A DNA stretch of 64,000 nt from Picrophilus oshimae DSM 9789. GTDB lineage: Archaea > Thermoplasmatota > Thermoplasmata > Thermoplasmatales > Thermoplasmataceae. This document shows, in pieces, positions 3,692-15,067 of this stretch. Made by a program: the position numbers and the translations under genes. The notes below the pieces were generated by a model. That model was not told where the DNA came from. It ran no database searches and was given only the letters and a program-made list of their open reading frames with translations. The DNA is taken from positions 62,001-126,000 of the forward strand of contig NZ_FWYE01000003.1 in the NCBI RefSeq assembly GCF_900176435.1, read 5' to 3'. Every line of letters starts with the position of its first letter. Position 1 is the stretch's first letter.

Positions 3692-3771
3692 GGTGACAGC
3701 CTCGTGATAGGATAGGCAACTCGGCTGGGTTGTTATTAAAATTTATGATCGGGTGTCACAGGAGGTTAATC
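3692..3771 (+). promoter_or_regulatory. Candidate structured 5' leader (riboswitch-like) of ABC operon
   Basis: This GC-richer stretch stands out against its AT-rich surroundings. GTGACA (3693-3698) can pair with TGTCAC (3754-3759) and close a domain. Inside it GCCT (3699-3702) can pair with AGGC (3714-3717), and CAACTC can pair with GGGTTG (3718-3733) with a GGCT loop. The closing strand abuts the ribosome binding site AGGAGG before the ATPase start at 3772, so folding could control translation. The likely transcription start coincides with the 5' strand of the closing stem. A mini-ORF ATG GTG ACA GCC TCG TGA starts at 3690. I could not match it to the TPP, fluoride, guanidine, Mn or cobalamin riboswitch consensus from memory. 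Confidence 0.45.
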
Positions 3772-4578
3772 ATGACCAGCGAGGATTACCAGATAAATCA
3801 GATAAACGAGCCGAGTTCAAGAGTCCCAGTGCTGCAGGCAATCAATATAAGCTTCTCATACGAAAACGGATATCGTGTCTTCCAGGATGTAAACCTCGAG
3901 GCCGGTGAGGGCAAGTTTGTCGCCATCATTGGCCCATCGGGAATTGGTAAATCAACGTTTTTAAGGATACTTGGTGGTTTTTTAAAGCCTGATTCAGGCT
4001 ATGTAAAATTAATGGGCAAACTCGTTTTAAAGCCAATTCCTGAGATAGCATTAATACACCAGTCAATAGTTACGTTTCCATGGATGACCGCCCTGGAGAA
4101 TGTAATGCTATCCATGAAATCAAAAAGAATCGATCAAAAAACTGCCGAGGAAAAGGCCAGGGAGGCCCTGGCAAGGGTGGGCCTTGAGGGCTTTGAAGAT
4201 CTCTATCCAAAGGAGATGAGCGGTGGTATGCGCCAGCGGGTTGCAATAGCCAGGGCATTTGCCGCCGATCCTTATGTATTTCTTATGGATGAGCCATTTG
4301 CCCATCTTGATGAACTGACGGCCGAGGGATTAAGGCAGGATATCTATAATATACTTTTCAGCGATAACACCTTAAAATCCGTTGTTATGGTATCGCATAA
4401 TCTTACAGAGGTTCTTGAGCTTGCAGATGACATATTCATACTTAATGGTGTGCCGGCATCTGTTGTTGGCATAGTCCATGTCGATATGCCAAGGCCGAGG
4501 AATCCAAAGACCGATGAATTTAATGGTTATCTTGATAAGCTTTACAATTATTTAACCCCGCCAAGGATGAAAAAATGA
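3772..4578 (+). CDS. ABC transporter ATP-binding protein, nitrate/sulfonate/taurine type
   Basis: A 268-residue ATPase. The start is set at ATG 3772 because AGGAGG lies 7 nt upstream; the frame stays open back to 3730. It has Walker A GPSGIGKS (about 54-61), signature MSGGMRQR, Walker B VFLMDEPF, and an H-loop VMVSHN. It belongs to the SsuB/TauB/NrtD-like family and should energise the double permease that follows 15 nt later. No solute-binding protein is encoded nearby, so the substrate cannot be told. Candidates from the family are sulfonates, nitrate-like anions, metals or pyrimidine precursors. Confidence 0.9.
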   Translation: MTSEDYQINQINEPSSRVPVLQAINISFSYENGYRVFQDVNLEAGEGKFVAIIGPSGIGKSTFLRILGGFLKPDSGYVKLMGKLVLKPIPEIALIHQSIVTFPWMTALENVMLSMKSKRIDQKTAEEKAREALARVGLEGFEDLYPKEMSGGMRQRVAIARAFAADPYVFLMDEPFAHLDELTAEGLRQDIYNILFSDNTLKSVVMVSHNLTEVLELADDIFILNGVPASVVGIVHVDMPRPRNPKTDEFNGYLDKLYNYLTPPRMKK

Positions 4579-4593
4579 TGGAGGTGACAGTCC

Positions 4594-6207
4594 ATGAATC
4601 CTTACCTTTTAATATTTCTTGCAACCGGTGCAACAACCATAAGGGTCCTTGGCCTAACGTTATTATCAATAGTTACCGGCTGGTTCCTTGCATACGGTGC
4701 AATAAAAAGCAAATACTTTGAAAATATTTATATCTCGGTTATAGAGGTTTTTGAATCAGTGCCTGTTATATCCTTTTTCCCGATAGTTCTTGTGATATTC
4801 ATAACAAGGATAGGCGGGCCACTTGGTGTTGAACTTGCCGCAGACTTTTTAGTTTTCACCGCGGTTGTCTGGAATATATGGATGGCTGAGTATCAGGCAT
4901 TTAAAACAGTTCCAAGAGAGATGGAAGAGGTTGTTGATAATATCGATCTTGGATTTTTTGGAAAGCTTTCAAAGCTTTACATACCATTTTCAATACCAAG
5001 AATAGCCGCAAACCTGTTTCCAAGCGTTTCAGATGGCTTCTTTTATATAACTGTAAGTGAGGTCATTGAGGTAGGAACACACACATACCAGACATTCGGT
5101 ATAGGAACACTTTTAACAGATTTTTCAAACAATATATTTTTAACAGAAATGTCACTTCTTGTAATGTCCTTCTTTGTTATAGCAACAATAGCAATTTTAA
5201 GGGAATACACAAAGAGGGCTGTTGCAAGGTATACCCTGGATACGGATGCACCAATAATAAGGCGTGGCAGATTAAACACAAGGCAGACATCAAGGATAGC
5301 ATCCGTAATATCAAAGAATCCATTTTCAAGATTGTCTTCATATTATAGATACCAGAATCTCGATATAGAGGAAAAATTTGAAAAACTGGAAAAAAAGAAA
5401 AAGTATTACAGATACGTTTACATTGCCATTGGCCTGTTTATATTGATATTGCTGCTTTATGGCAGTGCATCATTAATAATATCTGTAAAGGCGGATCAGT
5501 GGTTCTACCTGTTTTCAAAAACACCTGAAATTATAATATACCTTGCATATGATTATGCCAGGGTTGCTACAATACTTTTAATATCTCTTGCTATAGCAAT
5601 ATTCCTTGGATACTATCTTGCCGTGAACAAAAGGGCAGAATCCGTCGGCATTCCAATAATACAGACGCTAAGTGCATATCCGGCACCGATTTATTTTCCG
5701 TTTGTTTTTATATTTACATTGCCATTCATATCAAAATTCTTTGGGCCATACACAGATGAATTCTATGTGCTTGCAATAGGCTTTATAAGCACATTCTACT
5801 ATGTGTTTTACTCTTTCTGGATGGGTGTAAAGGCCCTGCCATCAGAATACTGGGAGTTAATGAAGAACATGAACATGGGATATTTCAAAAAAATGAGGTA
5901 TATAATAATACCTGCTGCGTTTCCATATTTGATCAGCGGAATATCATCAACAATAAACAGTGCCTGGGGAGGCTTAATGATAGGCGAGTACTGGCCAAAC
6001 ATTTATGGTGATAAATCACTGTATGTCCATACAGGACTGATGAAGCTCATAGATGTGGCAACGGCAAATGGAAACATAGAGCTTGCAGCATGGGCATCAT
6101 TTATCTTTTCAATAGTTGTTGTTATCTATTCAATATTATTCACCAGGAAGATGATGGACCTTGCAAGGAAAAAGTACGTTGCCGAGGAGGGCATCTACGC
6201 CGCATAA
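4594..6207 (+). CDS. ABC transporter permease, two fused BPD_transp_1 domains
   Basis: A 537-residue membrane protein with two permease halves, about 1-200 and 270-530, joined by a charged linker rich in Glu and Lys. Each half has an EAA-like loop, in the segments beginning PREMEEVVDNIDLG and LPSEYWELMKNMNMG. These dock on the ATPase. One polypeptide thus supplies the whole membrane channel. GGAGGTGAC lies just before the start, and the gene is co-transcribed with the ATPase. Fused permeases of this kind are known alongside ATPases of the nitrate/sulfonate/bicarbonate group that bear an AAA-associated C-terminal domain, which matches the next gene. Confidence 0.88.
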   Translation: MNPYLLIFLATGATTIRVLGLTLLSIVTGWFLAYGAIKSKYFENIYISVIEVFESVPVISFFPIVLVIFITRIGGPLGVELAADFLVFTAVVWNIWMAEYQAFKTVPREMEEVVDNIDLGFFGKLSKLYIPFSIPRIAANLFPSVSDGFFYITVSEVIEVGTHTYQTFGIGTLLTDFSNNIFLTEMSLLVMSFFVIATIAILREYTKRAVARYTLDTDAPIIRRGRLNTRQTSRIASVISKNPFSRLSSYYRYQNLDIEEKFEKLEKKKKYYRYVYIAIGLFILILLLYGSASLIISVKADQWFYLFSKTPEIIIYLAYDYARVATILLISLAIAIFLGYYLAVNKRAESVGIPIIQTLSAYPAPIYFPFVFIFTLPFISKFFGPYTDEFYVLAIGFISTFYYVFYSFWMGVKALPSEYWELMKNMNMGYFKKMRYIIIPAAFPYLISGISSTINSAWGGLMIGEYWPNIYGDKSLYVHTGLMKLIDVATANGNIELAAWASFIFSIVVVIYSILFTRKMMDLARKKYVAEEGIYAA

Positions 6208-6254: not shown

Positions 6255-6725
6255 ATGCCAGATGTAATAGATCCAAATGCCAGAATAGCGGACCTTGTTG
6301 GTATACTATATGTAATGAACAACATTTTTGATGGAAAAACAGATCTTTATCAGCTGGAAAAGGAGATGGAAGTTGATATAGATGACCTGATGCCAATAGT
6401 TTACACTGCATCAAGGCTTGGCCTTATAGATGCAGAGTCAGGTGATATATCAATATCCGAGAAGGGTATAGAATACATAAAATCCGGAATCATTCAAAGG
6501 AAAAAGATTATAAAGGATTCTTTAAAGGATGTTGAGCCATTCAAGACCGCAATATCACTTGGCTCATTTAATCTGGAAGATCTAAATGAGGCCCTTATAA
6601 AAAACGGTGTTCAAACATTTAATAATCCATCTGGAATACATGATCTTGAGATCATACTGATAGAATGGGGTGTTTATTCAGGTATGATAAAAAAGACTGA
6701 TGACGGTTTTGAAATAAATATCTAG
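6255..6725 (+). CDS. Stand-alone AAA-associated C-terminal domain protein (PF09821-like)
   Basis: A 156-residue soluble protein that starts MPDVIDPNARIADLVGIL. It resembles the C-terminal AAA-associated domain that is usually fused to ABC ATPases of the nitrate/sulfonate group: a winged-helix-like first half (about 1-80) and a second helical half. Here it is a separate gene behind an ATPase that lacks the domain, which supports a split of the usual fusion. It may regulate the ATPase or sense the substrate. It probably has its own leaderless promoter (TATA about 22 nt upstream). It converges with the next operon, overlapping 4 nt. Confidence 0.75.
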   Translation: MPDVIDPNARIADLVGILYVMNNIFDGKTDLYQLEKEMEVDIDDLMPIVYTASRLGLIDAESGDISISEKGIEYIKSGIIQRKKIIKDSLKDVEPFKTAISLGSFNLEDLNEALIKNGVQTFNNPSGIHDLEIILIEWGVYSGMIKKTDDGFEINI

Positions 6726-7723
6726 TTTATTGCCTCCTCATTTATTATCTCCTTAAGAACTCCATTATCATAGACGTTAAACCTTTTAAGACCTATTTTT
6801 ATCCTGTCACCAACGTTGTATTTGTTCCTTGATTGAAAAACTATGTTTCTGTCCTTGTATATACAATGTATAAAATAATTTGATTCCTCTATATCTATCA
6901 AAGAGACCTCAACCTCTATGTCATTTGAATCCTCATTTACCCAGGTTGGTCTGAAGCCTATGATTTTTTCATTGTAACCGAGTTCAGAGCCATCAATGAA
7001 GTTCATTGGGAAGTTGCCTATAAAATCCCCAACCCATGTATTGACCGGTCTGTTATATAATTCCTCATAGGTTCCTATCTGCTCTATAATACCGTTGTGC
7101 AGAACGGCCACTCTGTCTGCTATGTTTGATGCCTCGGCCTGGTCATGTGTTACATATATAAATGTGTAATTTAGCTCCTTCTGAAGCCTTTTTAGCTCCT
7201 GCCTTGATGTGTATCTTACCCTGGCATCAATGTTGCTTAAAGGCTCATCCAGCAGGAACAGTTGTGGGTCACGCACAAGTGCCCTGGCTATTGCAACCCG
7301 CTGCTTCTGGCCACCGCTTAATCTTGTGACCCTGTTATTAAGCTCTGCATCTATTTTTAAAAGTCTTGCAACACTCTCAACCTTCTCCCTTATTTTATCC
7401 CTTGGAACGCCGGCCATCTTCAATGGGAATGCAATGTTTTTGAACACGTTCATATTTGGATACAGTGCATAGTTCTGAAAAACCATGGATATGTTCCTCT
7501 TATTCGGTGGTCTTCTTGTTACATCCTCGCCATTCACTATAATCTTCCCGCTATCTATATCCTCTATTCCAACTATGGTTCTTAGCAGCGTTGATTTGCC
7601 AGTACCTGATGGCCCAAGTATAACAAGGAACTCACCGGCCGGAACCTTCAAATTTAGATTATCAAGCACCTTTTTACTGCCATATGATTTACAAACATCA
7701 ACAAGCTCAAGTTTATACTCCAC
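6722..7723 (-). CDS. ABC transporter ATP-binding protein, sugar (MalK/UgpC) type
   Basis: A 333-residue ATPase with Walker A GPSGTGKS, Q-loop MVFQNYALYPNM, signature LSGGQKQR, Walker B LFLLDEPLSNID, and switch HDQAEA. The C-terminal 100 residues fit the regulatory OB-fold region of MalK-like proteins, though shorter than in E. coli. The GTG start overlaps the preceding permease by 11 nt. It energises the two permeases in the same operon and, by position, should serve the solute-binding protein encoded divergently at 9544. Sugar import is the likely role. Confidence 0.9.
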   Translation of the reverse strand: MEYKLELVDVCKSYGSKKVLDNLNLKVPAGEFLVILGPSGTGKSTLLRTIVGIEDIDSGKIIVNGEDVTRRPPNKRNISMVFQNYALYPNMNVFKNIAFPLKMAGVPRDKIREKVESVARLLKIDAELNNRVTRLSGGQKQRVAIARALVRDPQLFLLDEPLSNIDARVRYTSRQELKRLQKELNYTFIYVTHDQAEASNIADRVAVLHNGIIEQIGTYEELYNRPVNTWVGDFIGNFPMNFIDGSELGYNEKIIGFRPTWVNEDSNDIEVEVSLIDIEESNYFIHCIYKDRNIVFQSRNKYNVGDRIKIGLKRFNVYDNGVLKEIINEEAIN

Positions 7724-8528
7724 CTAAACCACCACTTAAATATTCTCCCTTCAGGTATTTCTGAAGCACAACAGTAACAATTATAACAGGTATCGTTACT
7801 ATCAATGCAAAAGAAGATGCAACGAAGGGCTCTCCCCTGCTAACATAGTCGTATAGATCAACCGGAAATGTCGGCCTTACGGGTGATATTATAACCGCAT
7901 ATGTGAATTCATCCCATGATGTCATCCAGGCGATTAAAAATGTAACAAGCGCAGGAACCCTTATTAACGGTAATAAAACTCTTGCAAATGCGCTTTTTAA
8001 TGTCGCACCATCCACAAGGGCCTGGTTTTCAATATCCTGTGGCAGTGATCTGAAGCCACCAAGCATTATAAAAACAGATATTGGTAAAACAACAAGCTCC
8101 TGTGCAAGTGCTATGCCTATTACCGTGTTTTCAAGGCCAAGCCTTATAAAATATACCGATATCGGTATGGCTATAACAAGGGCCGGCATCATGTTTACAA
8201 CGAACATTAATATTATTATCCTGTTTGAAAGCCTTGCTGTAAGCTTTTCCAGGCCGTATCCAGCCGGTATCGATAATAGCAATGCAAGGAATGCAACTAT
8301 AAATGCAACCTCAGTGCTTCTTATTACAGGATAAACAAGGCTTAAATTTCTAAACGAAACCTCCAGATTTGACAGTGTGAAAACTACCGGCAGCTGGTAT
8401 GGATATAACCTATCAAATGTTAAATATGTCGGCTCAAAAGTTATTAATATTAATACATATAATGGATATATAAATATAATCGATAATATTATGGCGATTA
8501 TATAAGATCCAATGTTCTTACTTTTCAT
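7713..8528 (-). CDS. Sugar ABC transporter permease, MalG type
   Basis: A 271-residue protein with about six TM segments and an EAA loop in the segment ALVDGATLKSAFARVLLPLI. The start is set at ATG 8528 because a strong GGAGGTG (8544-8538) lies 9 nt upstream. The frame can be read back to a TTG at 8546, but that codon precedes the ribosome binding site. It overlaps the upstream permease by 11 nt and the ATPase gene by 11 nt, a tightly coupled operon. Confidence 0.9.
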   Translation of the reverse strand: MKSKNIGSYIIAIILSIIFIYPLYVLILITFEPTYLTFDRLYPYQLPVVFTLSNLEVSFRNLSLVYPVIRSTEVAFIVAFLALLLSIPAGYGLEKLTARLSNRIIILMFVVNMMPALVIAIPISVYFIRLGLENTVIGIALAQELVVLPISVFIMLGGFRSLPQDIENQALVDGATLKSAFARVLLPLIRVPALVTFLIAWMTSWDEFTYAVIISPVRPTFPVDLYDYVSRGEPFVASSFALIVTIPVIIVTVVLQKYLKGEYLSGGLGGV

Positions 8529-9351
8529 ATCTGGATGCACCTCCAAGCTTTATTATTATAAATGCAAACACAAGTATAATTATCAATAGTATTGTTGCGG
8601 CTGCGTATGCATACGGCGTCGTTGCAGGGGTTGTAAAGAATTCATAGACCAGTGTGTTCATTAAAGGTGGATAGTAGCCTATTAATACCAGTGGAAGTGC
8701 AAATATATTAAACTCGCTTACACCCCTTATCAAAAGCGCTATTGCTATATAAGGAGCAAGGTTTGGAAGCGTTATATAGATAAATCTCCTGAATGGACCT
8801 GCACCGTCAACGCTTGCAGCCTCGCTTATGGATGGAGGTATTCCGGAAAGACCGCCGTATAATATCAATGCAACAAGCGGTGTGTTTTTCCAGAAATCAG
8901 AAAACATTACAACACCAAGTTCTGAATAGTAATTTGAATACCAGTCCACCGGTTTTAATCCAAGGGAAACAAGAGTTGAATTGGCAAAGCCTCCAAGTGG
9001 ACTCAATATTAAAGAGAACACAAAGGCGGCAACCACAGTGGATATACCATATGGTATTATGAAAATTGTTGAGAATACCTTGTTTCCTTTAAGTGATTTT
9101 ATTAATATATTGGCTATGAGTATTGCAAAAAACAATTGAATGAAAAGTGCACCGATACTTACAATTAAAGTGTCACCTATTGCACCGGCAAGATCGCTTT
9201 TTATTATCCCCTGGTAATTGCTCAATGTGAAGTTACCATGAGATTTAAAGCTTAGATAAACAACTGACGCTGCCGGGAAAAATGAAAAAACAAGAACATA
9301 AACAAGTGCTGGTAGCACAAAGAGCAGGTACTTATACCGTCCAATCCTCAT
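8518..9351 (-). CDS. Sugar ABC transporter permease, MalF/UgpA type
   Basis: A 277-residue inner-membrane permease with six or so TM segments. It has an EAA loop at SEAASVDGAGPFRRFIYITLP and the family start pattern (an early TM then a periplasm-like loop). First gene of the operon: permease, permease, ATPase. It is divergent from the solute-binding protein at 9544, with 192 nt between the two starts, so the two promoters may share regulation. Confidence 0.9.
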   Translation of the reverse strand: MRIGRYKYLLFVLPALVYVLVFSFFPAASVVYLSFKSHGNFTLSNYQGIIKSDLAGAIGDTLIVSIGALFIQLFFAILIANILIKSLKGNKVFSTIFIIPYGISTVVAAFVFSLILSPLGGFANSTLVSLGLKPVDWYSNYYSELGVVMFSDFWKNTPLVALILYGGLSGIPPSISEAASVDGAGPFRRFIYITLPNLAPYIAIALLIRGVSEFNIFALPLVLIGYYPPLMNTLVYEFFTTPATTPYAYAAATILLIIILVFAFIIIKLGGASRYEK

Positions 9352-9543: not shown

Positions 9544-10935
9544 ATGGCAAAAAATAAGATTATAGCAATAGTAGCCATAGTTATAGTAATAATTGTAATT
9601 GGCTCTGTTATCGCATATGAATATCCAAGGATAGCACCAAAGCCTGCACAGAAGTACGAGCTTGCCGTTTATCCGGGGCCGTCAGGTCCTGTTAATGCAG
9701 ATCATATACTTGGAGGCTGCGTTCTGGCAATAGCTGATACTGCACATTTATCATCAGCAAAGATGGCTGCAGAGGAGCAGTTCATGGCATACATGCTTTC
9801 ACCACCGGTTCAGTATGACTGCATGAAGGCAACAGGCTTTATACCAATAAGCAGCTCTGACATTTCAAATTACCATGTGCCTGATATATATTCAAGATCA
9901 AATGCAACAGTAACAATAGATTACTACACAAGCATATCAATAACAGATTACAAGGCCTTTACACAGAAGGCAATAAGCAACTTCGAGGGTCTTTATCCAA
10001 ACATAATTATAAAGCCAACTGACATAGCAGCAACAAGTATAGTTTCCACAGTTGAGGCCGATGTAAAGGCAGCATCAACAACACCGATAGTAATGAGCAT
10101 TGACAATCTCGACGTTGGAATACTTGCATATGGTGGATACCTTGTAAATCTTAAAAATGTTGTAAGTGAGGTAACACCATCGAACGTTATAACATCAATA
10201 GTAAAGCTTACAAACGATGAGGCAAACATATTTGGTGGCAGCGTCCCATTCATAACGCAGATAATAAACACACCACTGGTCTGGATAAACTACAGTGCAT
10301 TAAAGAGCGCAGGAATAACAAGCATGCCGGCAACATACAAGCAGATGCTTCAGGATGCAAAGATACTTTACAAGAAGTACGGCCGTGGCATGGTAAACAT
10401 GCAGGGTCATGGTGGTGCCAGCACCGCAACTGAGCTTTATCAGATACTGGTGCAGTTCGGTGGAAACCCGGTAGTTTTCAACAATACCGGTGATATCCAG
10501 GGTATGTACTGCCTTTACAATCTTAGCAAGTATTTCAGCCCTGAATATAAGACATCATACTGGGCAACATACAAGGGCCTTGCATCAAACAAGTATGCGG
10601 TTATGGATTACCAGTGGCCCGGCTCAGTCAATTTAACAGCACTTGGCATGAAGTACAATGCAACAGGCTCACATTCAATAGTAAACATATCATTACAGGC
10701 ACTTTCAGAGGGTGTCTTCATAAGGGACCCGGTGTCATGGATAAGCGAGTGGCAGGTTATAATGGATTCGGCCTTTGTCAAAATCATAGAGAGCGGTACA
10801 CCGCAGAACTATACAACAATAGCACATGTACTCTCAGACGCAAATGCACAGATGTACAGCTACCTCCAGTCACATTACAATAATACTGTTGCAAAAGAAT
10901 ACGAAAACGGATACTTCAAGCCAATAGTTGTTTAA
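9544..10935 (+). CDS. Extracellular solute-binding protein, family 1, with permuted segment order
   Basis: A 463-residue protein with an N-terminal signal anchor (about 5-25). Residues about 40-115 contain PGPSGPVNADHILGGCVLAI, SPPVQYDCMKATGFIPI and related stretches. In family 1 binding proteins this is the late hinge and C-lobe region. The usual mature N-terminus (TVTIDYYTS followed by FEGLYPNI) only begins near residue 122. The spot near the C-terminus where the relocated piece normally sits is shortened: after LGMKYNATGS it goes quickly to GVFIRDPV. The frame is intact, Thr/Asn/Ser-rich and full of N-glycosylation sequons, as for a secreted archaeal protein. Partner of the divergent permeases. 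It may be a functional rearrangement or a scrambled gene. Confidence 0.85.
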   Translation: MAKNKIIAIVAIVIVIIVIGSVIAYEYPRIAPKPAQKYELAVYPGPSGPVNADHILGGCVLAIADTAHLSSAKMAAEEQFMAYMLSPPVQYDCMKATGFIPISSSDISNYHVPDIYSRSNATVTIDYYTSISITDYKAFTQKAISNFEGLYPNIIIKPTDIAATSIVSTVEADVKAASTTPIVMSIDNLDVGILAYGGYLVNLKNVVSEVTPSNVITSIVKLTNDEANIFGGSVPFITQIINTPLVWINYSALKSAGITSMPATYKQMLQDAKILYKKYGRGMVNMQGHGGASTATELYQILVQFGGNPVVFNNTGDIQGMYCLYNLSKYFSPEYKTSYWATYKGLASNKYAVMDYQWPGSVNLTALGMKYNATGSHSIVNISLQALSEGVFIRDPVSWISEWQVIMDSAFVKIIESGTPQNYTTIAHVLSDANAQMYSYLQSHYNNTVAKEYENGYFKPIVV

Positions 10936-10949
10936 AATTATAATTATTT

Positions 10950-11738
10950 TTATAGTATCCTTTCAGGATGTGAATATATATTCATTCTATTTTTTCTTAC
11001 AAATGATATTAATGTAATGTTAAATGTTTCTGCAACATCTATTGCAAGGGATGATGGTGCAGATACAGAGCTTACTATGGATACACCGAACATCGAGGCT
11101 TTTTGAAGTATCTCAAAGCCAGCCCTGCCGCTTACCTGTAATATTGAATCCTCCATACGATATACATTTTTTAGAATCATCTTTCCTATGGTTTTATCAA
11201 CCGCGTTATGCCTGCCTATGTCCTCGCTTATTGATATCATATTTCCATTGAGATCAAACAGGGCCGCAGCGTGAATGCCCCCGGTGTATGAAAATATTTT
11301 CTGATTTTTCATCATCTTATCCGGAAGACCCAGTATAATGCTGTGATCCGTCCTTGATTGTGATCTAACAATTCCATGGCTCTTTATAAACACGTTTTCT
11401 ATATCTGTTTTTCCACATACACCACAGCTTGAATTTACATAGAAATTCCTGTTTTTTAATAAATCCTCATTAAATGATTCAACTGAAACACAAACATTGT
11501 TTTCTGATCTCTTTGATACCTTAATTATTTTATCAGGTTCGATTATTCCCTCGTTTACAAGGAAGCCTGTGGCAAGGGCCTCATCATCAACAGGTGTTCT
11601 CATGATAATCGATACATTATAAATTCTGTTCTCATTCTCTATTGAGATCTGCAATGGCTCTTCCACCGTAACATTATCTGTGATGAATTTCCTGTCCCTG
11701 CCTATTATAACAGCATTTTTTGATATATATGGCATCAT
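10950..11738 (-). CDS. fdhD: Formate dehydrogenase accessory sulfurtransferase
   Basis: A 262-residue protein. FdhD passes sulfur to the Mo-bis-MGD cofactor of formate dehydrogenase. Visible are the active-site pair SSCGVCG (about 105-111), the YTGGIHAAALFD region, EDIGRHNAVDK, and SGRAGFEILQKA, all typical of FdhD. It is the third gene of fdhA-DUF1641-fdhD; its start overlaps the DUF1641 stop as ATGA. Confidence 0.95.
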   Translation of the reverse strand: MMPYISKNAVIIGRDRKFITDNVTVEEPLQISIENENRIYNVSIIMRTPVDDEALATGFLVNEGIIEPDKIIKVSKRSENNVCVSVESFNEDLLKNRNFYVNSSCGVCGKTDIENVFIKSHGIVRSQSRTDHSIILGLPDKMMKNQKIFSYTGGIHAAALFDLNGNMISISEDIGRHNAVDKTIGKMILKNVYRMEDSILQVSGRAGFEILQKASMFGVSIVSSVSAPSSLAIDVAETFNITLISFVRKNRMNIYSHPERIL

Positions 11739-12136: not shown

Positions 12137-15067
12137 TTAATCACCCGTTATCTTCTTATAATCAGCACGCTTCCATTTCATCTCAATATTAATACCAATC
12201 TGTGGAACCGGAGTCCCAAATCTGGGATTTGTTTTTGGCAGCGGAGACCCACCATTATCCTTTAATTTTTTAATCCTTACAGGCAGTTCCTTGTAGGCAG
12301 GCGTGTCTGAATCAGGATCTCTGTTATAAGATGTTAAAAGGTTTATTCCGTTATCGCTTGATGCAGCGTTCATTGGCATGTAAAGCTCCTTACCCTTAAC
12401 ACGATCCGTTACAAGGGCCCTGACCTTTATGCTGCCATATCTGGATGTTACCCTAACAAAATCCCCTGTTTTTATATTATATTCGTCTGCAAGCTCAGGC
12501 GATATTTCAAGGAATGTATCCGGGGCCTTGTCCCTTATTCCAGGCGTCTTAAAGGTTTCATTGCCCTCATGGAAGTGCTCAAGCATCCTTCCGTTGTTTA
12601 GATGCAGTGGATAATCATCATCCTCCATTATTGGCGGTCTGTACTTTAAGATATACAATCTTGCCCTTCCATCAGGGAAATTAAATCCATCCTTATAAAG
12701 ATATTTTGATGAGTCTCCATTCTCATATGTCGGCCACTGCATGCTGTTAAAACCCTCAAGTCTTGAATATGAAACGCCGCTGAATATTGGGCATAGTGAT
12801 GCAGCCTCGTCCATAATGTCTGATGGGCTTTTATAATTCCAGTTATATCCAAGCCTTCTTGCAATATCCTGTATTATCTCCCAGTCAGGTCTTGTTTCAG
12901 CGTATGGTTCCATAACTTTGTATATTCTCTGTATTCTCCTTTCTGTATTTACATATGTGCCCTCTTTTTCAAGGCTCACGCATGATGGCAGAACGACATT
13001 GGCATACCTTGCGGTTTCAGAGAAGAATACATCCTGCACTATCAAAAATTCCAGCTTTTCAAGTGATTTGTTTATCATGTTTGTATCAGGACCTGTTTCG
13101 GCAAGCTCCTGTCCAATGATATACATGGCCTTTATTTTATCGTTGTCTATGTTTTCTATGCACGAAACGTTGTCTATTCCAGGATTCATTGGTAACTTTG
13201 TGTTCCATGCCTTTTCAAATTTCTTTATTGCATTCTTATCATTTATTGGCTGGTATCCTGGAAGGTATGTCGGCATGGCACCAAAGTCGCTGGCACCCTG
13301 AACATTGTTGTGCCCCCTTAGTGGATATGCACCGGTACCTGGCCTGCCATAATTTCCAGTTATTAAAAGAAGATTTGATATCGCTGTTGATACATCTGAA
13401 CCTGCAGAGTGCTGTGTTACTCCCATGGCCCATAGTATGCACATGCTTTTTACACTGTGTATCATACTTGCAACCTTTATTATCTCATTTTTGTCTATTC
13501 CGGTTATTTTCTCGGCATTTTCAAGTGTAAAATTATCAAGGCTTTTATAATATTCGTCAAAGTTGTTTACCCTTTCCTCTATAAATTTTTTGTCATGCCA
13601 GTTGTTATCTATTATATATTTTGTAATTGCAGACAGTAAAAATAGATCAGTGCCCGGCCTTGGGTGCAAAAATAGATCAGCCCTCTGTGCCATCTCATTC
13701 CTTCTCAGGTCTATAACTATCAGCCTTTGATTGTTTAATTTATGTGCCCTTTTTATTCTTGTTGCTATTACAGGATGTGATTCGGCTGTGTTTGCACCAA
13801 CTATCATTACAAGCTCAGAGTTATATATGTCATCTATTGATCCGGCATCACCGCCATAGCCAACTGTTCTCCAGAGACCCGTCGTTGCCGGTGCCTGGCA
13901 GAATCTTGATGAGTTATCTACATTGTTTGTTTTGAATATCTGCCTTGCCATCTTTTGAATTAAGTAGGCCTCCTCGTTTGTGCCCTTTGAGGATGCTATG
14001 AACATTATACTGTCACCGCCGTATTTATCTGAAATTCTTTTTAAACCTGCTGCAGCAAAATCAAGCGCCTCATCCCAGGACACCTCGACAAATTTATTGT
14101 TCTTCCTGATCAATGGTCTTTTTAATCTATCATCGGAATTTACAAAACCCCAGCCGAATTTTCCCTTTATGCATGTGGATATACCATTTGCAGGGGACTC
14201 TATTTCAGGCTGAACCTTTAATATCTTTCTGCCCTTGGTCCACATTGTAAATGAGCAGCCGACACCGCAGTATGTGCACACTGTCTTTGTCTTTTTTATC
14301 TGTTCGTTTCTCATCCTTGCCTCTATATTACTTATCTCCATGATTGGTCTTATTGTTAATTGATCTTCAAGATTCTTTCCAAAGTCTATCAATGATTCCT
14401 TGGCCTTTCTTGTAAGTGATGTAAAATATCCAGCCTCCTCAAGCATGGATTTTTCCATCAATGCATTTACCGGACAGACAGTTACACAGTGACCACATGA
14501 TACACAGGATGATTCGTTTATCATTTTGCCATCATCCCAGACAACCCTGGGTCTTTCAAGTGTCCAGTCTATGTGAATTGTCTCATTTACCTCAACGTCC
14601 TGGCATGCCTCAACACATCTGCCGCATAGGATGCATTCATTTGGATCGTACCTGTAAAATGGATTTGAATCATCAATTTCATATGGCTTCTTTTCATACT
14701 TATATTTCTGTCTCTCAAGACCGGATGAATCCACGGCGTTATGAAGTGCGCAGTCGCCGTTGTTATTTTCGCAAACTGTGCAATGCAGGTTATGCTCTCT
14801 TAAAAGCCTGTTTATTGCCTCGATCTGGGCATTTTTTACATCGTTGTTTTTATATTCTATATTCATATTATCTTCTGCAATTGTTGAACATGACCTTACA
14901 AGCCTTCCATTAACGCTTACAATGCATGTATCGCATGATTGCAATGGACCAAGTGCAGGATTATAACATACATGAGGTATATCTATGCCAGCCTTAATGA
15001 AAACATTTAACAATGTATCGCCTTCCAAAAAATTATACCTGTTTTTTTCTATCGTTAAGGTGCCCAT
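12137..15067 (-). CDS. fdhA: Formate dehydrogenase alpha subunit, molybdopterin and multi Fe-S
   Basis: A 976-residue enzyme that oxidises formate to CO2. Order of domains: N-terminal [2Fe-2S] ferredoxin domain (CYNPALGPLQSCDTC), His-Cys [4Fe-4S] segment (HCTVCENNNGDC), two ferredoxin clusters (CILCGRCVEAC and CVSCGHCVTVCP), then the catalytic [4Fe-4S] (CTYCGVGC) and Mo-bis-MGD domains. The catalytic ligand appears to be cysteine in SSRFCQAP, not selenocysteine. No separate NADH-binding subunit is nearby, so the electron acceptor is unknown. There is no twin-arginine signal, so it acts in the cytoplasm. A TATA element about 25 nt upstream suggests a leaderless mRNA. Confidence 0.93.
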   Translation of the reverse strand: MGTLTIEKNRYNFLEGDTLLNVFIKAGIDIPHVCYNPALGPLQSCDTCIVSVNGRLVRSCSTIAEDNMNIEYKNNDVKNAQIEAINRLLREHNLHCTVCENNNGDCALHNAVDSSGLERQKYKYEKKPYEIDDSNPFYRYDPNECILCGRCVEACQDVEVNETIHIDWTLERPRVVWDDGKMINESSCVSCGHCVTVCPVNALMEKSMLEEAGYFTSLTRKAKESLIDFGKNLEDQLTIRPIMEISNIEARMRNEQIKKTKTVCTYCGVGCSFTMWTKGRKILKVQPEIESPANGISTCIKGKFGWGFVNSDDRLKRPLIRKNNKFVEVSWDEALDFAAAGLKRISDKYGGDSIMFIASSKGTNEEAYLIQKMARQIFKTNNVDNSSRFCQAPATTGLWRTVGYGGDAGSIDDIYNSELVMIVGANTAESHPVIATRIKRAHKLNNQRLIVIDLRRNEMAQRADLFLHPRPGTDLFLLSAITKYIIDNNWHDKKFIEERVNNFDEYYKSLDNFTLENAEKITGIDKNEIIKVASMIHSVKSMCILWAMGVTQHSAGSDVSTAISNLLLITGNYGRPGTGAYPLRGHNNVQGASDFGAMPTYLPGYQPINDKNAIKKFEKAWNTKLPMNPGIDNVSCIENIDNDKIKAMYIIGQELAETGPDTNMINKSLEKLEFLIVQDVFFSETARYANVVLPSCVSLEKEGTYVNTERRIQRIYKVMEPYAETRPDWEIIQDIARRLGYNWNYKSPSDIMDEAASLCPIFSGVSYSRLEGFNSMQWPTYENGDSSKYLYKDGFNFPDGRARLYILKYRPPIMEDDDYPLHLNNGRMLEHFHEGNETFKTPGIRDKAPDTFLEISPELADEYNIKTGDFVRVTSRYGSIKVRALVTDRVKGKELYMPMNAASSDNGINLLTSYNRDPDSDTPAYKELPVRIKKLKDNGGSPLPKTNPRFGTPVPQIGINIEMKWKRADYKKITGD

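Follow-up and report, generated by a model that had tools for sequence, protein, structure and literature searches.

What order do the segments of the binding protein at 9544-10935 stand in, and can a protein built in that order still serve an importer? The window is a stretch of 64,000 nt of Picrophilus oshimae DSM 9789 (NZ_FWYE01000003.1, 62,001-126,000, forward strand), and all coordinates are positions in it. The open reading frame 9544-10935 (+) was uninterrupted and gave a product of 463 aa, so the frame is intact, as a sequence-only reading of this DNA had said. The product matched SBP_bac_1 with 42.3 bits (cut-off 26) and SBP_bac_8 with 35.3 bits (cut-off 27), which places it in family 1 (cluster D). 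A type I (cluster B) fold was not indicated, the matches being to family 1 Pfam models and type II PDB chains. The product is a type II (family 1) solute-binding protein, anchored in the membrane and belonging to an ABC importer. By sequence and role it belongs to a known family, and it departs from the canonical order of that family. The features are collected in Table 1.

Table 1. Features of the binding-protein gene and its importer genes, with window positions; lobe names are predicted from the UgpB domain map.
Feature	Position	Strand	Basis
ABC ATPase, UgpC/MalK-like	6722..7723	-	ABC_tran; best NCBIfam model UgpC, below cut-off
ABC permease B	7713..8546	-	BPD_transp_1; closest NCBIfam model GlcU, below cut-off
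ABC permease A	8518..9351	-	BPD_transp_1; closest NCBIfam model GlcT, below cut-off; adjoins both kinds of binding protein
N-terminal transmembrane anchor, residues ~5-26	9556..9621	+	sequence; model helix 3-30; same kind of anchor in canonical relatives
Segment B, first part: putative hinge-2 strand, residues 38-56, YELAVYPGPSGPVNADHIL	9655..9711	+	aligns with canonical STLGVYPGPAGPVNANHVL; model strand 39-43
Segment B, second part: putative domain I part 2, residues 57-121, GGCVLAI...SPPVQ...TGFIPI, plus new junction to segment A	9712..9906	+	SBP_bac_8 profile 202-263; B-only profile on PDB chains; pLDDT
Segment A, putative domain I part 1, residues 122-241; opens with TVTIDYYTS, where mature chains usually begin	9907..10266	+	SBP_bac_1 from profile position 3; A-only profile
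Putative hinge 1, residues ~242-245, NTPL: predicted to be the only crossing of the backbone left between whole lobes	10267..10278	+	aligned with UgpB STPV region
Segment A, putative domain II part 1, residues 246-376	10279..10671	+	segment boundaries; colinear with canonical relatives
Segment C, putative domain II part 2, residues 377-463	10672..10932	+	directly abuts A where canonical relatives have B; contains invariant R394

Segment order in the 463-aa protein

Comparison with relatives divided the chain into segments A (residues 122-376), B (38-121), and C (377-463). Canonical relatives were arranged as anchor-A-B-C, whereas the P. oshimae protein was arranged as anchor-B-A-C. In the Pfam search, residues 132-346 aligned with positions 3-199 of 307 of the SBP_bac_1 profile, and residues 33-104 gave the best SBP_bac_8 stretch, at positions 202-263 of 279. 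A late part of the profile stood ahead of an early part, so the segment disorder was visible from Pfam alone. The two other family 1 binding proteins of the same genome were canonical and aligned with SBP_bac_1 from end to end (positions 2-303 and 8-306), while the 9544-10935 product stopped at position 199; the oddity is therefore specific to this gene.

The remaining comparisons gave the same order. In BLAST against canonical relatives, the query residues came as ~117-376, then ~21-117, and then ~345-463. A profile of B alone matched PDB chains at positions ~274-375 of 406-453 (best E 2.7e-7, UgpB 9LFF), and it matched canonical members of its own family in their C-terminal third with E down to 4e-15. 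The A-only profile matched the N-terminal regions of 3zkk, 9xf5, 2z8d, and 1eu8 (best 1.9e-6), and the C-only profile matched no solved relative. Profile-profile alignment of the permuted with the canonical family aligned A and C and left a gap of ~75 columns at B. The spacing from YQWP to GVF.R was 31 residues, against about 105 in the canonical protein L033, in keeping with the earlier claim that the expected C-terminal site is shortened. The B motif YPGPSGPVNADHILGG of the P. oshimae protein corresponded to YPGPAGPVNANHVLGG in L033. Pfam, BLAST, profile-profile, and single-segment comparisons thus agree on a permuted order: by these alignments, ~75-85 residues are shifted from near the end of the protein to its beginning, and they precede TVTIDYYTS at residue 122 as the sequence-only reading had described. 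That reading had staked its claim on the C-terminus lacking an intact copy. No second copy of B and no intermediate order B-A-B-C was detected with segment HMMs over all fetched ORFs or with the B profile over 117 genomes, and the B profile was homologous to the late region of solved binding proteins.

The same reading had offered two descriptions, circular-permutation-like and segment-swapped. Circular permutation was rejected because rotation of A-B-C yields B-C-A or C-A-B, and in the observed B-A-C order C is still last. The cyclic rotation of circularly permuted binding proteins (TpMglB-2, cluster Bc) was not found, nor was the canonical I-II-I-II order of family 1 with its three hinge crossings. 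The description as segment-swapped fits B-A-C against canonical A-B-C. On the aligned segments, the reordering is a non-cyclic segment transposition, by which the domain order I-II-I-II becomes I-I-II-II.

Distribution of the permuted order and its importer genes

A search of 117 genomes of the order with the B profile detected the permuted gene in 30 genomes from 12 genera of one family, and canonical order at 16 loci. The permuted count is a lower bound (at least 30 genomes), and about 35 related loci were canonical when the neighbouring order was included. The suggestion that related species might share the permuted order was thus borne out. In the neighbouring order, 15 of the 106 genomes held relatives; 13 had all three segments, all canonical, and two were partial matches. 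No permuted form was found outside the family among 390 phylum-wide genomes and the 106 genomes of the neighbouring order, and no homologues were found on plasmids. Some genomes (G049, G079) carried both kinds together. A further canonical subfamily of the binding protein, distantly related and accompanied by permeases and an ATPase of its own, was present in several of the same genera (L047-L052, L074). In G096 (C8:85810-87215), a 50%-complete assembly, the permuted gene was split over three frames by sequencing error or as a broken gene.

Trees of A alone and of A, B, and C realigned split 26 full-length permuted proteins from 25 canonical ones with 100% support. Trees of the two permeases and the ATPase recovered the same permuted clade, again with 100% support, and placed it among canonical clusters. 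Solved members of the family carry the canonical order, so the permuted order is derived, and the trees point to a single origin in this sample. Canonical relatives were ~30-44% identical over A. Compared with the congener G095, B had a dN/dS of 0.032, and the part of A that was compared had one of 0.084; by these ratios, B is under strong purifying selection in its new position.

The gene stands beside two permeases and an ATPase, as is expected of a family 1 binding protein. In P. oshimae it is divergent from the PermA, PermB, and ATPase genes of a CUT1-like importer. Canonical genes mostly came first in a co-directional SBP-PermA-PermB-ATPase cluster. Within the permuted clade, the binding-protein gene was divergent upstream in genera g1, g2, and g5, and lay behind the ATPase on either strand in g4, g9, and g16-g19. 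The observation that the gene sits opposite its permeases is therefore correct for this gene and for the nearest genera, though it does not extend to all of the permuted clade. Permease and ATPase genes adjoined permuted and canonical genes alike at the loci where wider flanks were read, the exceptions being contigs that ended early. The usual cluster position was perhaps lost in the same rearrangement that moved the segment.

NCBIfam gave no model for the binding protein, and the models of the partners all stayed under their curated cut-offs. As these sub-threshold matches were nearest to GlcT/GlcU and UgpC, the ligand is probably a sugar or a sugar-like compound. The neighbouring genes established no link to the Picrophilus torridus secretome proteins PTO0181 or PTO1178 (PMC8345856).

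Two further genes of the window were noted. The gene at 4594-6207 (+) encodes an ABC permease of 537 aa that may be a natural fusion of two NtrB/SaoP-like permease domains, judging by its length and its two hydrophobic halves; its ATPase gene (3730-4578) stands before it and a small ORF (6255-6725) after it. At 12137-15067 (-) lies the gene of a 976-aa formate dehydrogenase alpha subunit with a NuoG/HoxU-like N-terminal iron-sulfur extension, with an FdhD gene near it (10950-11738).

Lobe map, predicted fold and rival explanations

The lobes were assigned with UgpB of Phaeobacter (9LFF), in which domain I comprises residues 23-142 and 303-373, domain II comprises 147-283 and 388-433, the hinges lie at 143-146, 284-302, and 374-387, and the ligand contacts include Ser143, Gly303, and Arg393 (PMC12718374). 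The HMMER alignment to 9LFF set G58 of the P. oshimae protein on chain position 323 and residue 241 on position 162. A numbering offset of 20 would convert these to Gly303 and to residue 142 at the border of hinge 1. Since this offset fits both the ligand contacts and the domain borders of UgpB, B corresponds to hinge 2 plus part 2 of domain I, the N-lobe; the assignment of residues 38-56 to the hinge-2 strand follows the same map and the same inferred offset. The earlier reading had taken residues about 40-115 for a late hinge and C-lobe. The hinge was recognized correctly, and the lobe, by the 9LFF map, is the N-lobe.

The elements of the P. oshimae protein were ordered as hinge 2, domain I(2), domain I(1), hinge 1, domain II(1), and domain II(2). 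Each lobe would then be contiguous in the sequence, and hinge 1 alone of the three crossings would link complete lobes. N242 and P244 of hinge 1 were invariant in the 26 permuted proteins. The GG motif of B and R394 of C were invariant in permuted proteins, and the equivalent positions were invariant in canonical ones; R394 is the likely equivalent of the ligand-contacting Arg393 of UgpB. At residue 59 (GGC, 9718-9720), the GG motif was followed by C in most permuted proteins, including that of P. oshimae, and by D in canonical relatives and in permuted L010-L013.

The AlphaFold model, built with 26 sequences, had a mean pLDDT of 79 and a pTM of 0.77. Within B, pLDDT was 92-96 at residues 61-90 and 84-86 at residues 91-110; the confidence dropped to ~50-60 around residues 335-370. 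Foldseek returned ABC solute-binding proteins, mostly sugar-binding, at a TM-score of at most 0.56 and an rmsd of 4-18 A by order-dependent matching. Such a low TM-score is what partial order-dependent matching would give, or an uncertain arrangement of the lobes. Because of the low confidence at ~335-370 and the mediocre Foldseek matches, the inter-lobe geometry is only a prediction. A canonical relative was modelled at pLDDT 60, too poor for comparison, and was left out.

Taken together, the gene very probably encodes a functional binding protein of CUT1 type, whose transposed segments would come together again in the usual Venus-flytrap fold. B would have moved, in an ancestor of a single archaeal clade, from its site between A and C to one directly behind the membrane anchor. 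In the folded protein it would still lie where it normally does, against part 1 of domain I of the same chain, and the two-lobed fold with its binding cleft would be restored. The lobes would be contiguous, with domain I at ~57-241 and domain II at ~246-463, and hinge 1 would be the one main crossing. Hinge strand 2 would carry the chain in from the membrane anchor, and the link between lobes that hinge 3 provides would be lost. Ligand binding and closure may be expected to resemble those of a Venus flytrap, with the solute passed to the adjacent permeases. The B-A-C order probably arose when an in-frame tandem duplication produced A-B-A-B-C and the first A and second B were then lost, the simplest route and one that would leave a usable B at every step. 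We also think it likely, with less assurance than for the working protein, that a type II binding protein has here been un-interleaved in nature by a conserved, non-cyclic permutation, giving contiguous lobes, one main covalent crossing instead of three, and a tether that enters at the hinge.

B may instead have come from another binding-protein gene, with the native B lost afterwards. Its last part (residues ~91-108, TGFIPI) was only 12-17% identical to canonical relatives, and its end, ATGFIPIS, is closer to generic family 1 proteins such as UgpB (TGYVPIT) than to LSWVAIN of its own canonical relatives. We regard this origin as unlikely, as the first part of B (YPGPSGPVN.DH..GG) shared 52-53% identity with canonical proteins of its own family, the B profile matched no other binding protein in the 117 genomes at E<=0.01, and the two other family 1 proteins of the same genome were unlike B. 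It is quite improbable that B completes the fold of a neighbouring molecule, the protein acting as an oligomer in a domain-swapped dimer or chain. An isolated permuted lobe of ribose-binding protein does dimerise via segment swapping (PMC9815098), and the new linker of ~15-20 residues between B and A would accord with a swap, but the single-chain model folds B with high confidence. Solute-binding proteins, moreover, normally act as monomers.

Decay of the gene, or a changed role, for example as a sensor or structural surface protein that no longer serves the importer, would agree with its absence from the usual place ahead of the permeases and its divergent or convergent position in many genomes. 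It is nevertheless very improbable in view of a dN/dS of 0.03-0.08, the invariance of GG and R394, and transporter genes that remain adjacent and share the same phylogeny. An artefact of assembly, frameshift, or annotation was also weighed, and the split copy in G096 is the point in its favour. The 26 full-length genes, however, had uninterrupted frames in separate assemblies, including the single-contig G048 and G069, with flanking genes in place; misassembly is ruled out by these independent assemblies, and the artefact as a whole has a negligible probability.

Comparison with known binding proteins

In two-lobed binding proteins, hinge motion is attributed to the interleaving of the lobes and to the several hinge crossings between them. 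Duplication and segment swapping have long been proposed as the origin of these features, and the proposal has been examined mostly on engineered halves to date (PMC9815098). The permuted clade, one of acid-loving archaea, would have undone the interleaving under strong selection, and its canonical relatives, at up to 44% identity, are built-in controls. The clade thus offers a natural experiment on the folding, hinge motion, and evolution of two-lobed binding proteins, in which one can ask whether the number of hinge crossings affects closure, affinity, and stability, and whether the contiguous lobes can be expressed alone. Contiguous lobes may also aid biosensor design.

Well-supported non-cyclic permutations among close homologues are rarely reported. 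A 2007 study described them as little noticed and offered one possible natural example (PMC2096629). In the open-access literature we found the circularly permuted type I TpMglB-2 and engineered permuted lobes of a ribose-binding protein (PMC9815098), but no type II binding protein with a natural permutation of non-cyclic kind; an earlier description elsewhere is possible. If the proposed arrangement is true, no such topology would have been seen before in the binding-protein superfamily, and the protein would be the living equivalent of the artificially permuted single lobes with which the evolution of these proteins has been studied.

The canonical cluster D (type II) proteins of Thermoplasmata (L033-L052, L070-L074) share the family, anchor, transporter partners, and GG and R positions with the P. 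oshimae protein. They differ in their A-B-C order and in that the gene usually heads an SBP-PermA-PermB-ATPase cluster. UgpB of Phaeobacter, the best match of the B-only profile, has the same domain elements and hinge segments, but these are interleaved as I-II-I-II with three hinges (PMC12718374).

The closest precedent is TpMglB-2 (Tp0684) of Treponema pallidum, of 'type Ic / cluster Bc', which is likewise a natural segment reordering in a membrane-tethered ABC binding protein (PMC4990184). It keeps ligand binding and ligand-induced closure, so these two properties can survive reordering in a tethered binding protein. TpMglB-2 has a type I fold and is a true circular permutation, in which N-terminal strands moved to the C-terminus and a fourth lobe crossing was needed (PMC4990184), whereas the P. 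oshimae protein is type II, non-cyclic, and predicted to have fewer crossings. The domain dislocation model for the passage from type I to type II binding proteins (Fukami-Kobayashi 1999, as cited in PMC9815098) also sees an exchange of segments between lobes as an evolutionary step. In that citing account, the dislocation is ancient and inferred from folds; the change in P. oshimae would be younger, is traceable in sequence, and would un-interleave the lobes.
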